Of a stretch of DNA of 64,000 nucleotides, positions 11,699 through 57,784 are shown in pieces; position 1 is the stretch's first letter, and each line of letters opens with the position of its first letter. The stretch covers positions 372,001-436,000 of the forward strand of contig NZ_FNFN01000004.1 in assembly GCF_900101045.1 (NCBI RefSeq). The letters run 5' to 3'. A program made the translations under genes and the position numbers. The stretch comes from Nocardioides sp. YR527. Its GTDB lineage: Bacteria; Actinomycetota; Actinomycetes; Propionibacteriales; Nocardioidaceae. Below the pieces are notes generated by a model, which was not told where the DNA came from, searched no databases, and worked only from the letters and a program-made list of their open reading frames with translations.

Positions 11699-11735
11699 GG
11701 GCCACTCCAACCCCACAACACCGAGGAACTCTGTG

Positions 11736-12281
11736 ATGGACCCCGTCGACCTGGCTCTGATGCTTCTCCGGCTCGCGGTGGGTGGCACGATGATCGCCCA
11801 CGGCGTCAACCATTGGCGCGGAGGCGGCAAGATCGCCGGCACCGCAGGCTGGTTCGAGAGCCTCGGCCTTCGCCACGGCACCCTGCAGGCGTGGGCCAGC
11901 GTGGTGACCGAGATCGGGGCCGGCGTACTCCTGATCCTGGGCCTGATCACGCCGCTGGCCGCAGCCGCCGTCGTCGCGGTGATGCTCGTGGCCGCGCTGC
12001 TGGCGCACCGCCCCAACGGGTTCTTCGTCTTCAAGGACGGCTGGGAGTACGTCATGATCCTGGCCGTCGTCGCAGTCGTGCTCGGCGTCACAGGACCCGG
12101 GACGATCTCGCTCGATGCGTCCCTCGACATCGTCTACGACGGCTGGGTTGGCGGCGCGGTAGCGCTAGGCGGCGGCGTCGCCGGCACCGCCCTGCTCCTC
12201 GCCGCTTTCTGGCGCCCGCAGCGCGAGGACACCCCCGCCGAAGAAGCCCCCGCCGACGAAGCCCCCGCCGACGACGCCTGA
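11736..12281 (+). CDS. DoxX family membrane protein
   Basis: 181 residues from the ATG at 11736, with GAGGA about nine bases upstream. Four membrane helices follow the DoxX pattern: LALMLLRLAVGGTMIAHGVN, then a cytoplasmic GWFESLGL segment, ASVVTEIGAGVLLILGLITP, and a third and fourth helix separated by the PNGFFVFKDGWEY loop. An extra C-terminal helix is followed by a short acidic repeat tail (EEAPADEAPADDA). Family members are small quinol-oxidase-like or redox-partner membrane proteins of poorly known role. The C-terminal tail leads straight into the 31-bp repeat array seven bases past the stop. Confidence 0.87.
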   Translation: MDPVDLALMLLRLAVGGTMIAHGVNHWRGGGKIAGTAGWFESLGLRHGTLQAWASVVTEIGAGVLLILGLITPLAAAAVVAVMLVAALLAHRPNGFFVFKDGWEYVMILAVVAVVLGVTGPGTISLDASLDIVYDGWVGGAVALGGGVAGTALLLAAFWRPQREDTPAEEAPADEAPADDA

Positions 12282-12287
12282 CCCGTC

Positions 12288-12558
12288 GCCGAGTCGGCGC
12301 AAACTGACGAGGTCCGACGCCGAGTCGGCGCAAACTGACGAGGCCCGTCGCCGAGTCGGCGCAAACTGACGAGGTCCGACGCCGAGTCGGCGCAAACTGA
12401 CGAGGTCCGACGCCGAGTCGGCGCAAACTGACGAGGCCCGACGCCGAGTCGGCGCAAACTGACGAGGTCCGACGCCGAGTCGGCGCAAACTGACGAGGCC
12501 CGACGCCGAGTCGGCGCAAACTGACGAGGTCCGACGCCGAGTCGGCTCGTCATGACGC
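12288..12558. repeat. Tandem array A of a 31-bp unit, eight full copies plus a partial ninth
   Basis: Units start at 12288, 12319, 12350, 12381, 12412, 12443, 12474, 12505 and 12536 with an exact 31-base period. Each unit has an 11-base dyad core GCCGAGTCGGC, then GCAAACTGAC, then GAGGYCCGAC (Y and one A/T position vary). The core is two 5-base arms, GCCGA and TCGGC, around one base. 31 bp is about three helical turns, so all cores face the same side of the DNA. The ninth core leads into a 34-bp near-perfect palindrome at 12536-12569 centred on CGTCATGACG. The minus strand is open in several frames here, but only because the unit has no stop codon. Confidence 0.95.
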
Positions 12559-12662
12559 GCCGACTCGGCGGGGGAGTCGGTCAGGATGAGCCGACTCGGC
12601 GGGGGAGTCGGTCAGGATGAGCCGACTCGGCGGGGGAGTCGGTCAGGATGAGCCGACTCGGC
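12559..12662. repeat. Tandem array B, inverted relative of the 31-bp unit, three full copies plus a partial fourth
   Basis: Cores GCCGACTCGGC start at 12559, 12590, 12621 and 12652, again every 31 bases. Read on the minus strand, each unit is the same 11-base core, then TCATCCTGAC, then CGACTCCCCC, so it shares the core and CTGAC with array A but has a different second half. The two arrays therefore face each other, with a 23-base step between the last A core and the first B core. No gene lies between the DoxX stop and the membrane protein start at 12734; the array fills most of this 452-bp gap. Confidence 0.93.
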
Positions 12663-12721
12663 GCGACCAAAGTCGAGCGAGGTCGCGACGGAAGGACGAT
12701 GCCGCGACGCCGGCTCGTTCC

Positions 12722-12733: not shown

Positions 12734-14122
12734 ATGCGTCGGCAACAGATGGTCCCGGTAGCGCTCCTGGTCGCCGCGGTCGGTCTGCTCGGACTGGGTG
12801 TCGTCGGCCCGCCGACGGCGGATGGCGGCATCCGGATCACGCCAGGGTTGCCGATCCTGCTGGTCGCGGCAGGGGTGAGCTGGTGGTGGCGGGGGAGTGC
12901 CGGCGCCGTCCTCGGTGTGGTCGCGGTCGCCGTCGTGACGGTAGCCTCGATCGGCGCCGGACTCGGGTCGGACCTGGTCGGTGACCGCGGGCTGCCGGTT
13001 GCCGTGGCACGCTGGGTCCAGGTGGTGGGGCTGGCTGCCGCGACGTACGCCTTGGTCCGGCGGCTGGTGGCAGGACGGTCGCCGGTGGGGACAGCCGGTG
13101 AGCGACCTCGCCGTGACCGGAGCAAAGTACTCCAGGTCACGGGTCTGCTGGTGCTGTGCGGGATCGGAGCCGAGCTGCTGGCAGCGTACGGGGACAGCAC
13201 GGGGGACCCGGGAGGGATCGCCTTCGCGCTGGTCTTCTTCGGCGCGCTCTACGGAGCGCCGGCGCTGCTCGCCCGAGACCTGGTGCGCCGCCTCGGCTGG
13301 GGCTGGCCGAGCCTGCTGCTGATCTTCGCAGCTCTGGGCACGGCACAGGCCGGCCTCATCGACCAGTCGCTGTTCAGCGTCGACTACGGCGGTTACGAGG
13401 GCTGGGAGGAGAACCGTGAGCCGACCCTCATCCCGGCCGTCGGGCTCAGCGGCTACAACGCCTACTCCTTCATCGTCGGGCACGTGATCTTCAGCTTCGC
13501 CGCGCCTGTTGCACTGGCTGAGGCATGGGTGCCCGCACGGGCCAGGAAGCCGTGGCTGGGTCCGGTCGGCATCACCTTTGCCGCGATCGCGTACGCCGTC
13601 GCCGCCGTGCTGATCGTGACCGACCCGGAGTCACGGTCGGGGAGCAAGGCTCAGCTGCTCGCCATGGCAGGGCTGGTCGGTGCTCTGGTGATCCTCGCCG
13701 TCATCGTCGGTCGGCGCCACCAGGAGGACCACGCCGGTCCCGGGAAGCCTGGCGTCTCGATCTGGTTGGTCCTCGGTGTCGCGTTCGTCCTCGCGCTCAT
13801 TCCTGATCTCATGCCTGCGACCTGGTTGGGCGTGATCGGCGCGGCGACCGCGACGGCGACGGTCGGAGTGCTGCTCCTTCTTGCCGCCCAGACGCGAGCC
13901 TGGACGATCCGGCACACCGCGGCGGTCGGTGCTGCGTTCCTGCTCGAGCGGGGGTTGCTGGCGTTCACCTACTTCCCCCTCATCGGTGATGTCGCGGTAG
14001 GCCCGAAGTACGCCCACAACGTGTCCATGCTCCTCGTCGTCGCGCTCGCGGGATGGCTCGCCCTGCGGGGTCGTACTGCTATGGCCCCGCCTGCGGAGCG
14101 CACCGCTCTGCCGGCTGGTTAG
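12734..14122 (+). CDS. Multi-pass membrane protein of unknown function
   Basis: 462 residues with roughly ten to twelve hydrophobic segments spread over the whole length, for example MVPVALLVAAVGLLGLGVVG at the start and SMLLVVALAGWLALRG near the end. A soluble loop around residue 215-240 holds YGGYEGWEENREPT. I recognise no catalytic or transporter motif and give no function. The ATG is preceded by a TAGCCT element at leaderless spacing. The TAG stop overlaps the TAA stop of the convergent HNH gene by two bases (14119-14122), so there is no room for a terminator between them. Confidence 0.7.
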   Translation: MRRQQMVPVALLVAAVGLLGLGVVGPPTADGGIRITPGLPILLVAAGVSWWWRGSAGAVLGVVAVAVVTVASIGAGLGSDLVGDRGLPVAVARWVQVVGLAAATYALVRRLVAGRSPVGTAGERPRRDRSKVLQVTGLLVLCGIGAELLAAYGDSTGDPGGIAFALVFFGALYGAPALLARDLVRRLGWGWPSLLLIFAALGTAQAGLIDQSLFSVDYGGYEGWEENREPTLIPAVGLSGYNAYSFIVGHVIFSFAAPVALAEAWVPARARKPWLGPVGITFAAIAYAVAAVLIVTDPESRSGSKAQLLAMAGLVGALVILAVIVGRRHQEDHAGPGKPGVSIWLVLGVAFVLALIPDLMPATWLGVIGAATATATVGVLLLLAAQTRAWTIRHTAAVGAAFLLERGLLAFTYFPLIGDVAVGPKYAHNVSMLLVVALAGWLALRGRTAMAPPAERTALPAG

Positions 14123-15630: not shown

Positions 15631-15719
15631 TTCTCGATCTGGTCCGGAGTCCAGGACCGCGAAGCGGCCGGCGAAGCCGGCGCCCGCAGGGCGTCCTTGA
15701 CGCCGGACCAGATCGAGAA
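15631..15719. repeat. 89-bp hairpin-forming inverted repeat with 17-bp perfect arms
   Basis: The left arm 15631-15647 (TTCTCGATCTGGTCCGG) is the exact reverse complement of 15703-15719. Inside, AGTCCAGGAC and GTCCTTGACG pair at most positions, and the tip is GCCGGC-GAA-GCCGGC. The whole element could fold into one long stem. It resembles an extragenic palindromic element or the remains of a small mobile element. There is no run of T that would suggest a simple terminator. Confidence 0.8.
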
Positions 15720-15864
15720 CACCCTCCAGAAAGGGTCGGCGGCCCACGGTCCCCCGAAGAAACAGTCCCCGACAACTGCCAGAACGAACTCAACAAGGTC
15801 GAAACACCCCGACCAGACCCGGAAGCGACCGTGTTGGTCTCGACACGCTCGCTGGCGCTCGCGG

Positions 15865-15940
15865 CTCGACCAGCGGGGCGGGCGGCTCGACCAGCGATGG
15901 AGCGCCGCTCAACCAGCGATGGAGCGCGGCGAGACCAGCG
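15865..15940. repeat. Four copies of a CTCGACCAGCG-like element every 21-22 bp
   Basis: Copies start at 15865, 15886, 15908 and 15930, the last two with changes (CTCAACCAGCG, CGAGACCAGCG), separated by GATGGAGCG-type spacers. They follow a CTCGACACGCTCGCTGG stretch at 15839. Similar GCTCGACCAGCG phrases are common between genes in related actinobacteria (from memory). The array stops 19 bp before the 3' end of the nhaA fusion. Confidence 0.65.
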
Positions 15941-15958
15941 AGGGAGCGAGGCAGAACC

Positions 15959-17842
15959 TCAGCGGCGCGAGCGGATCCCGAGCCGAGCGGTCTCGCCGGT
16001 AGCTGAGCGCTCGAGCTCGGCGATGAGAGTGCGGGCGTCGTAGCGACCCTCGTGGCGGTGCGTACCGACGAAGAACGTCGGCGTGCCGCGGGCGCCGCTG
16101 TCGTTGGCCGAGGCCATGTCCTCGCGGACGTGCTCGGCCAGGTCCGGGTCCTCGAGGTCGCGGAGGAACTGTTCGACGTCGAGCCCGAGGGCTCCGGCGT
16201 AGCCGGCCAGGTCCTGGTGCTCGAGCTCGTTCTGGTGGTCGAAGAGGTGCTTGTGCATCTCCCAGAACCGACCCTGCCGTCCCGCGGCCTCGGCGGCGAC
16301 CGCGGCCAGTTCGGCGTGCGGATGCTGGGGGAGGGGCAGGTGGCGTACGACGTAGCGGATCCGCGGCCCGAAGTAGTCGCGGACCTCGTTGGCGGTGCCG
16401 GTGGCGCGGGCGCAGAAGGGGCACTCGTAGTCGAGGTACTCGAGCAGGGTGATCTCGGCGTCCTCGGCCCCGTAGATGTGGTCGCGCTCCGGGTCGACCG
16501 GAGTCGAGAGCACCTTCGGCAGCGCCGCGTCGCGCTGGCCGAGGAAGCGCGCGGAGAGCTGGAAGATCACCCAGCCCAGCGCGGAGGCGAGCACCACGGA
16601 GAGGAGTACGCCGACGATCGCATCGCGCTGAAGCGTCTCGGAGTCGAAGGCGAGGGTGGTGATCAGCAGCGCGACGGTGAAGCCGATCCCCGACAGCGCC
16701 GCGCCGCCGAGAACATGGCCGCCGCCGACGCCCTGGGGCAGCTGCCCGAGCCGCAGCCGCGTGGCCACGAGTGCGCCGCCGCCGATCCCGAGCGTCTTGC
16801 CCAGGACCAGGCCGGCCACGACGCCCCAGGTCACCGGCGAGCTCAGCGCCTCCCCGAGCACGCCGTCGCGCAGGTCGACGCCTGCGTTGGCGAGCGCGAA
16901 GACCGGCACGATGAAATAGCTCGTCGGTACGTGCAGCGTCTCCTGGAGCCGCTCGTTGACCGAGATCGTGCGGGTCAGCTCGTCGCGGGTCTCCCGCTGC
17001 AGCGTGGGCAGCGGCGACTGCCGGAAGGCCCGGAACCGCGAGGTCGCGACCTCCATCTGGGCCCGGGTCGGCTCCGCCGCCGGCACCAGCAGACCGGCCA
17101 GCATCCCGGCGATCGAGGCATGCAGGCCGGCGCCGAGGGTGGCCACCCAGGCGATCAGGACGAGCAGTACGTAGGGCCCGGCCCGCCATACCTTCACCCG
17201 GTCGAGCACGAAGATCCCGACGAGGGCCAGCCCGGCCACCACCAGCGGCCCGATCTCGAGCTGCTCGGTGTAGGCGACGCCGATCACGCTGACCGCGACG
17301 ATGTCGTCGATGACGGTCAGCGTGAGCAGGAAGATCCGCAGCTGGGTGGAGACCGCCGGCCCGACCAGCGCGAGCATGCCGAGCAGGAACGCGGTGTCGG
17401 TGCCGATCACGATGCCCCACCCGCGGGCCGCCTCACCGGAGGGGTTCAGCAGCACGTAGATCAGCGCCGGCAGGAGCAGGCCGCCCGCGCCTGCGATCAG
17501 CGGGACCACCATGCGGCGACGGTCGGTGAGCTCGCCGACGGCGAGCTCGCGGCGTACCTCCAGGCCGACGACGAAGAAGAAGACCACCATCAGGCCGTCG
17601 TTGACCCAGTGGTGCAGGCTCATCGAGAGGCCGACGTCGCCGAACCGGACCGAGACCACTGTCTCCCACAGGTGCTCGTAGCCGTGCGACCACGGCGAGT
17701 TGGCCCAGGCCAGCGCCAGCAGCGAGGCGATGACCAGCAGCGTGGCGCTGGTCGACTCCAGATGCATGAAGTGCCGCAGCCTGGTGCCGAGCTGCCCGGT
17801 CAGGTCGTCGTCACGCCGGCACTTCGTCTGCTGTTTCCCCAC
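15959..17842 (-). CDS. nhaA: Na+/H+ antiporter NhaA fused to a DsbA-like thioredoxin domain
   Basis: 627 residues from a GTG start. Residues 20-430 are NhaA: a helix pair with [20 protein letters not shown], then the ion-binding Asp pair D179-D180 in [13 protein letters not shown]. Residues 450-615 are a thioredoxin/DsbA-like domain with the active site C474-P-F-C477 and a cis-Pro loop GTPTFFVG near 586. NhaA alone is about 390 residues. The thioredoxin domain should lie on the cytoplasmic side if the 12-helix topology holds. The fusion is known in Actinobacteria; redox control of antiport is a reasonable but unproven idea. The gene starts just after the MscS-like gene and seems to have its own leaderless promoter. 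Confidence 0.93.
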
Positions 17843-56798: not shown

Positions 56799-57784
56799 AC
56801 GTCGAGACCTCCTCGACGCACGCGGCCGAGGTCGCGCCGCCGACGGCGGTGGGGGACGTGCTGCGGTGCACCGATCTGCGCCGGTCCTTCGGAGCGGTCC
56901 AGGCGGTGGACGCCGTCTCGTTCCGGATACACGCAGGGGAGACGTACGGCCTCCTCGGCCCGAACGGGGCCGGCAAGACGACCGTGATCTCGATGGTCTC
57001 TGGCGTACTGGAGGCCGACTCGGGTTCGGTGCTGGTCGACGGTGTCGAGATGCATCCCGGTGCCCTCACGGCCAAGGCGGCCATCGGGTACGTGCCCCAG
57101 GACGTCGCGCTCTACCCCGACCTGACCGGTCGGGAGAACCTGCTCTTCTTCGCCTCGCTGTACCGGATCGGTCGCCGCCGGGCCCGGAGCAGGGTCGCGG
57201 AGGTCCTCGACATCGTCGGGCTGACCGAGCGGGCGAGCGACCGGGTGGAGACGTACTCGGGAGGAATGAAGCGTCGGCTCAACATCGCGGTCGGCCTGAT
57301 CCACCGACCCCGTCTTCTGGTGCTCGACGAGCCCACGGTGGGCGTCGACCCGCAGAGCCGCAACGCCATCCTGGGCAGCGTCGAGCGGCTCAGCACCGAG
57401 GGGATGGGGGTTCTCTACACGACCCACTACATGGAGGAGGCCGAGCGACTCTGCGACCGGGTCGCGATCATGGACCTCGGGCGCCTGATCGCCGAGGGGA
57501 GGCCTCGGCAGCTGACTGCGCGGCTGGGTGACTCCGAGCACATCCGCCTCACCCTCGAGGGTGACTCGACCCGTGCGGTCGCCGCCCTACGTGACCTCCC
57601 GCGCGTCACCGGTGCGACCGCGACGGACGATGCGATCGACGTGCTCGTGCCGGACGCCGAGTCGGCACTCCCGCAGGTGATCCAGGTCGCCGCCGCCCAG
57701 GGCACGGTGCGTTCGGTCAGCGTGGACGAGCCGGACCTGGAAACGGTCTTCCTCCGCCTGACCGGCAAGCGGCTGCGTGACTGA
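56795..57784 (+). CDS. ABC exporter ATP-binding protein, DrrA/ABC-2 type
   Basis: 329 residues from the ATG at 56795. Walker A is GPNGAGKTT, the Q-loop GYVPQDVALYPD, the signature YSGGMKRRLN and Walker B LLVLDEPTVG; a C-terminal extension of about 90 residues (DSEHIRLTLEGDSTRAVAAL onward) is typical of the DrrA/CcmA group. It powers an exporter with two permeases encoded next. The overlap with the universal stress gene implies stress-linked expression. Substrate unknown; lipids, drugs or polysaccharides are possible. Confidence 0.92.
   Translation: MNVETSSTHAAEVAPPTAVGDVLRCTDLRRSFGAVQAVDAVSFRIHAGETYGLLGPNGAGKTTVISMVSGVLEADSGSVLVDGVEMHPGALTAKAAIGYVPQDVALYPDLTGRENLLFFASLYRIGRRRARSRVAEVLDIVGLTERASDRVETYSGGMKRRLNIAVGLIHRPRLLVLDEPTVGVDPQSRNAILGSVERLSTEGMGVLYTTHYMEEAERLCDRVAIMDLGRLIAEGRPRQLTARLGDSEHIRLTLEGDSTRAVAALRDLPRVTGATATDDAIDVLVPDAESALPQVIQVAAAQGTVRSVSVDEPDLETVFLRLTGKRLRD

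Follow-up and report, generated by a model that had tools for sequence, protein, structure and literature searches.

A candidate REP-like family of phased palindromic cores at gene 3ʹ ends in Nocardioides

In bidirectional intrinsic terminators, convergent genes are separated by a strong symmetric hairpin. Multi-site operators and centromere-like arrays, such as the iterons of parC/ParR systems, repeat a palindromic core at near-integral helical turns. The closest described elements are the REPs, and those of other phyla, which carry GTAG or CGTC tags, are located mostly between convergent or tandem genes at less than 20 bp from 3ʹ ends (PMC3733652). CGTC REPs are described there as having no dedicated transposase, and the REP passages of the same paper do not mention Actinobacteria. 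The REP listing of a survey includes three Actinomycetota, none of which is Nocardioides (PMC12306157), and the word Nocardioides is absent from the main text of both publications. Literature searches by core sequence and by genus plus repeat terms found no description of a Nocardioides repeat family.

The window, which is the entire 64,000-nucleotide stretch of Nocardioides sp. YR527 DNA analysed here, carries two opposed arrays of an 11-bp palindromic core (hereafter A-core). The original prediction proposed nine and four opposed cores spaced at 31 bp, and a pattern search located precisely these: nine exact copies of GCCGAGTCGGC at 12288 to 12536 and four exact copies of GCCGACTCGGC at 12559 to 12652, with every step equal to 31 bp. 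The left arm (12288..12546, plus strand) contains eight 20-bp spacers composed of GCAAACTGAC and about 10 additional bp, which occur as three near-identical variants, and the right arm (12559..12662, minus strand) contains three identical spacers. Tandem-repeat detection reported 8.5 copies with a 96% match at 12283-12546 and 3.4 copies with a 100% match at 12559-12663. If one mismatch is allowed, the window holds 35 matches to the core (shuffle mean 11.6; none of 100 shuffles reached 35), and one additional exact core at position 57656 resides inside a called gene.

When read in a consistent orientation, the unit in both arms consists of the core GCCGAGTCGGC, a 10-bp extension (GCAAACTGAC in the left arm and TCATCCTGAC in the right arm), and about 10 more bases. 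Once the two opposed arms are turned into a common orientation, the CTGAC previously noted in both flanks is present at an equal position relative to the core. Between the arms, two opposed cores surround TCGTCATGACGC to create the near-perfect palindrome that had also been predicted (12536..12569, no strand assigned), in which 32 of 34 positions equal their own reverse complement, leaving one mismatched pair. This segment is predicted to form a 34-nt hairpin with an MFE of -26.5 kcal/mol. The face-to-face step at the junction is 23 bp, or about 2.2 turns, which rotates one arm by about 70 degrees relative to the other. The proposal that all sites occupy one DNA face thus holds within each arm, but only roughly across the junction. 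No Rfam model matched the window at gathering scores.

The array follows a DoxX-family gene (11733..12281, plus strand; PF07681, E 1e-20), with 6 bp between the end of its stop codon and the first core. The called start of the downstream gene (12749..14122, plus strand), which appears by eye to encode a membrane protein-like product and has no Pfam match at E 0.001, lies 86 bp beyond the array. At the array end, inspection by eye revealed a native inverted repeat, CGCGACC..GGTCGCG (12662..12687, no strand assigned), a counterpart of which is visible by eye at array-free sites of two relatives (G053 and G127). Pfam assignments for four window neighbours of the array are DoxX, no match, DUF222 and EamA. 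A link between the arrays and DUF222, whose representative in the window is presumably 13E12-like, was rejected: no homolog was found among 571 array-locus proteins and two were found among 364 background proteins, in a comparison where the window’s own DUF222 gene falls outside those array loci. Likewise, no gene family neighbouring the arrays was enriched among the largest clusters listed.

Two other symmetric features reside in the same region. A second phased array at 15860-15952 has a 22-bp pitch (CGCGGCTCGACCAGCGAGGGAG), is separated by 6 bp from the stop codon of a gene on the minus strand (15959-17842), and resembles the GCTGGTCGAG hairpin family that fills one orthologous gap (that of YR527 element L021) in relatives G127, G124 and G015. 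An intergenic inverted repeat, CTCGATCTGGTCCGG .. CCGGACCAGATCGAG, was seen by eye at about 15633-15717 beside the DUF222 gene.

The original prediction also called for searches of the genome and its relatives for the core at fixed spacing, and these revealed that the layout recurs genome-wide and genus-wide with quantised spacings. The YR527 genome (6.19 Mb, 22 contigs) carries 290 exact cores, versus 28 matches to a reversed control pattern. These cores are scattered across many contigs and, in the elements examined, reside mostly at 3ʹ gene ends, which led us to reject the earlier suggestion of a partition site, where few copies beside par genes are expected. For a 127-bp query, 40 of 151 candidate regions were scored and gave 99 matches; up to 40 candidate regions per genome were scored both in this search and in the look-ups of two YR527 sites described below. 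The commonest form seen in the genome has four cores across 96 bp with 31-23-31 spacing. Among 58 distinct YR527 spacers, the extension is TCGTCCTGAC-like and the final ten bases are variable and AT-rich at the centre. Each unit of the element has a fixed 11-bp core joined to a lineage-specific extension of about 10 bp, and the 31/32-bp forms add a variable linker, for which the profiles of two genomes show AT-richness.

Among 39 sampled genomes, 14 contain core pairs separated by 10-30 bp, and all of these belong to the genus (14 of 25, including YR527, versus none of 14 others from the order; the reversed control matched in 4 of 39), with 0 to 128 pairs per genome in the genus sample. Facing core pairs are present in 56 of 196 genus genomes, again including YR527, at 0 to 46 per genome, and the reversed control gave 0 in all 196. 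A scan of named genomes yielded at least 104 stretches with the element. Among the matches listed (80 rows), 78 derive from Nocardioides or Nocardioidaceae, and two from MAGs labelled Sorangium and Proteobacteria. This conservation of spacing and symmetry across genome and genus agrees with the earlier view that the array is not random satellite DNA, and we tentatively regard the window array as an enlarged copy of a dispersed REP/BIME-like extragenic element of Nocardioides. The longest array seen (L199 1979-2627, on contig C14 of G021) is a one-way arrangement of about 30 cores with a 22-bp pitch. In a viral scan, IMGVR_UViG_3300025915_000004 (L329, 10733-10791) was the only viral contig with a facing A-core pair.

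The elements immediately follow stop codons and often occupy the whole interval between convergent genes. Among 128 elements sampled in five A-core genomes, 59 are convergent, 55 tandem and 3 divergent; the other 11 overlap a called gene or sit at an edge and were set aside, so that 117 were scored. Background gene pairs number 41 tandem, 6 convergent and 6 divergent in the window, and 238, 61 and 60, respectively, in a relative (G013). Stop-side distances have a median of 11 bp, with 117 of 173 at 20 bp or less, versus a start-side median of 71, with 8 of 61 at 20 bp or less. The samples came from the core and 127-bp searches for the YR527 genome (G000) and were picked from listings for G001, G068, G018 and G021. 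Genes were called with a purpose-built caller, and counts vary by one as its training set grew. An exception to this placement is an array between two divergent genes, which from reading their sequences we take to be ispH-like and xseA-like, that is 30 bp from one gene and touches, or is less than 20 bp from, the start of the other. This arrangement is kept in N. albus.

Spacings between cores fall mostly at 21-24, 29-33 and 38-44 bp. Across 42 genome labels, the distinct direct spacings are 22, 24, 30, 31, 32, 41 and 44 bp, and the distinct opposed spacings are 21-23, 29-33, 38-42, 48 and 52 bp; these were taken from 78 listed Nocardioides rows of the at least 104 loci, with search patterns that restricted which gaps could appear. 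Among distinct genome-spacing values, 32 of 33 direct and 53 of 59 opposed deviate by no more than 2 bp from a multiple of 10.5 (the fraction expected under uniformity is 0.41), although the labels are not independent, given that they include related species and possibly the same species under two labels. The quantised spacing supports helical phasing, but ten-base modules would look alike.

One explanation for this regularity is that the cores are sites for a dedicated Nocardioides DNA-binding protein that would act cooperatively on one helix face, as the clustering near multiples of 10.5 bp suggests. We consider this rather unlikely. Similarly doubtful is the extension by which the putative protein would make a roadblock, a supercoiling insulator or a nucleoid-organising site at gene ends. 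The pooled spacings fit a period of about 9.5 better than 10.5, 10-bp building blocks suffice to explain them, and both the shared ancestry of the labels and the search patterns temper the numerical support. In addition, no candidate protein emerged and no gene family stood out beside the arrays. The original prediction is upheld in that spacing and symmetry are conserved, and a regulatory or nucleoid-protein site is conceivable, but the evidence from position and covariation suits a hairpin-forming, REP-like 3ʹ-end element at least as well.

The inner stem that separates facing cores is a species-specific inverted repeat, reading GCGCACATGTGCGC between core edges in G068, AGCAACGTGCT in G095 and GCCAGATTGC..GCAATCTGGC in G052. 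Among orthologues of one site (L092) the cores are constant and the stem is altered on both sides (GCGTTCTGACGC, CCGTCTTGACGG, GCGTTCTAACGC, GCATCCTCAGCGGAGGATGC). Complementarity of the inner arms is 0.83 within elements versus 0.44 between elements (101 facing pairs from named loci). At the outermost position of the inner stem, occupied by T-A or G-C, 29 of 34 YR527 elements form a Watson-Crick pair (permutation mean 18; none of 5000 as high). The fifth inner pair, which would leave a two-base loop, shows no covariation within YR527 elements (22 of 34 matched, permutation mean 19.6, p 0.23) but covaries when species are pooled (58 of 77, permutation mean 41.9), where pooling mixes differing species consensus. 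A longer hairpin through the linkers was rejected because, across 40 elements, linkers of the two arms show no covariation (0.438 within versus 0.417 between, permutation p 0.19). Covariation of the first inner pair, but not of the linkers, matches what a short-loop hairpin would show, and is not predicted if the cores serve only a DNA-binding protein. In five orthologous comparisons of 31-23-31 elements, identity is 95-100% for cores, 88-90% for extensions, 87% for junctions and 62-70% for linkers. The excess of core over linker identity would suit a protein-binding site, but the comparisons represent four YR527 elements whose counterparts were partly fetched for exact cores, which favours inner cores.

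Facing elements also carry the G+C-rich hairpin of an intrinsic terminator, and this feature is weaker in one-way arrays. When the sequence beyond the hairpin is read outwards on either side, positions +5 to +8 form a T-rich tract in G000 (40-60% T), G001 (38-75%) and G068 (67/61/14/78%), but named loci have only 24-36% T at these positions. The window copy lacks a T-tract, and a terminator scan found no terminator there. One-way arrays are frequent in certain species (G018, 24 of 30 sampled; G021, 8 of 12) and have no T-run after the last core in these two genomes. The genus-wide search found no facing pair within 8-30 bp in G018, although a separate analysis of that genome shows two opposed pairs, at 22 and 42 bp. 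Thus, a perfect hairpin is not universal, and arrays lacking hairpin partners speak for a DNA-binding protein. Core orientation relative to the nearer gene is inconsistent in one-way arrays (11 GAG to 9 CTC in G018, and 5 to 2 in G021). An RNA motif that functions solely in the sense of the upstream gene is unsupported in both genomes.

The window array is absent at the orthologous site, located via the downstream gene, in three relatives (G053, G127 and G124). In G053 and G127, about 7 bp separate the stop codon from the GCGACCAAAGTCGAG stretch, which in the window comes right after the array, and this occupied/empty comparison, made for one site and read in these two genomes, reveals no obvious target-site duplication of the kind that a MITE, with its TIRs, leaves on insertion. 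In G001, the DoxX gene was not found beside the orthologue of the downstream gene. Such absences, together with the range from 0 to 128 core pairs per genome in the genus sample, might be expected of a selfish or neutral repeat, spread by some enzyme, that has no host role and persists only where it is harmless, after stops. Selection against insertion into promoters or genes alone can produce positional bias, and REPs of other phyla exhibit the same placement (PMC3733652). However, we judge this possibility to be improbable. By eye, 13 of 14 other YR527 elements have a counterpart in the same position in one or more relatives, frequently with a different number of cores, in a sample biased to sharing since relatives’ loci were fetched for elements of their own. 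Retention of this kind, with cores preserved as linkers drift, and the filling of the same gaps by unrelated hairpins both argue against a repeat without function.

The latter observation comes from two convergent YR527 sites (L012 and L021) examined in six relatives. Of the 12 gaps, one measures just 7 bp and the other 11 are longer than 20 bp. Nine of the 11 have MFE z-scores from -4.6 to -13.4 for the strand folded, and of these one belongs to the same family (G011, L021 site) and eight are other strong hairpins; the remaining two gaps (L401, L403) have weak or no structure. By eye, the replacing hairpins include the GCTGGTCGAG family and another one repeated at a pitch of about 21 bp. For background, G013 gaps of 40-300 bp had z-scores below -4 in 6 of 22 cases between convergent genes, in 5 of 75 between tandem genes and in 0 of 53 between divergent genes, and none of 18 gaps of this size in the window did so, all z-scores being derived from mononucleotide shuffles. 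Replacement by unrelated hairpins is also not predicted by a DNA-binding protein. The L012-orthologous site carries an unrelated hairpin family (GAGARGTCGRTTTCTG-like by eye, with a pitch of about 21 bp in places) in L400, L402, L404 and L405. At another YR527 element (L006), the orthologous site of a relative (L245) holds an unrelated long palindrome, GTAACACGCTGTTCGTAG..CTACGAACAGCGTGTTAC.

Mobilisation by a RAYT was ruled out as far as PF01797 can tell: this domain was found in 1 of 196 genus genomes and not in that of YR527, whereas 5 of 14 control genomes, including E. coli, match.

Some relatives employ a variant core. In G013, a relative without the A-core, a GCCGGGTCGGC repeat (G-core) is enriched in the 400 kb sampled. 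Direct G-core pairs occur in 59 of 196 genomes (control in 7 of 196), although some pairs, such as those with a recurring CTCGAACTC spacer, resemble coding sequence. Among 17 genomes with at least 10 G-core pairs, exact facing A-core pairs are lacking in 14 and limited to a single pair in each of the other three, and among 17 with at least 10 facing A-core pairs the highest G-core count is 6. The two cores are therefore nearly exclusive per genome, as judged from counts of exact opposed pairs for the A-core and exact direct pairs for the G-core, which are not like for like. G-core elements of some relatives have the same layout as in A-core genomes. Most G137 elements have cores spaced 32-40/41-32 around a stem, and of 16 elements 9 are convergent, 3 tandem and 4 overlapping a called gene, with several touching a stop codon. 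Four G-core elements of G078 are one-way (3 tandem, 1 convergent), and some G-core sites in the G013 sample are between divergent genes, which leaves 3ʹ-end placement unsupported in that genome.

Near-exclusivity of core types would be expected of a DNA-binding protein, whose specificity could have changed between lineages from a GASTC to a GGGTC core or the reverse, a proposal we regard with the same doubt as the protein itself. A more elaborate and quite unlikely possibility is a genus-specific system in which a putative protein reads GCCGR-S-TCGGC cores at whole helical turns to form cooperative bidirectional transcription roadblocks or supercoil insulators between convergent genes, with the recognised core switched between lineages and the inner 10 bp re-invented in each species.

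The explanation that we prefer, with somewhat less than even confidence, is that these elements constitute a REP-like family of bidirectional 3ʹ-end hairpins without a RAYT. When transcribed from either side, facing cores and inner stem would fold into a strong hairpin that may end transcripts or protect 3ʹ ends on both strands. Arms would lengthen through tandem duplication of whole units, and the elements would be copied or spread by a mechanism other than a RAYT-type Y1 transposase. The genome-wide family, its 3ʹ-end placement, covariation of the inner stem, the T-rich tracts of G000, G001 and G068, sequence replacement with structure kept, and the lack of a RAYT all count in favour of this explanation. 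Counting against them are the window copy without a T-tract, the one-way arrays and their inconsistent orientation, the array between divergent genes, and the three relatives that lack the window array. The replacement evidence comes from two loci, at which two of the 11 longer gaps have weak or no structure. Furthermore, quantised spacing and a fixed 11-bp core are not required of a terminator, and the regularity is better explained by a DNA-binding factor.

This abundant extragenic repeat family of a large actinobacterial genus, with no RAYT, a fixed core, replaceable stems and quantised spacing, opens two questions to experiment: by what route REPs without a transposase spread, and whether RNA hairpins or a DNA-bound protein mediate the action of phased repeats where convergent genes end. 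Compared with bidirectional terminators, the elements share a symmetric hairpin and, in three Nocardioides genomes, T-rich sequence downstream on both strands, but differ in their repeated arms, fixed core, weak or absent T-tract and one-way arrays. As in parC/ParR-type arrays, a palindromic core is repeated at near-integral helical turns, but here dozens of copies are dispersed at gene ends and no partner gene stood out. The closest resemblance is to REP/BIME elements, which are described as short, palindromic, dispersed, intergenic, near 3ʹ ends and often arranged as opposed dimers (PMC3733652). The Nocardioides family is likewise a high-copy, short palindromic intergenic repeat near 3ʹ gene ends. 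However, its arms are tandem arrays with a fixed 22- or 31/32-bp pitch, its core, an odd palindrome of 11 bp, carries no unpaired GTAG or CGTC tag, and its inner stem is replaced between species. By eye, no GTAG tag was seen, and the CGTC or CGTT that follows the core in the YR527 lineage is inside the inner stem, where G068, G095, G052 and G189 have other sequences. The Nocardioides family combines phased multi-core arms with an absence of tags, and we file it as a new REP-like variant, apart from any named REP family.
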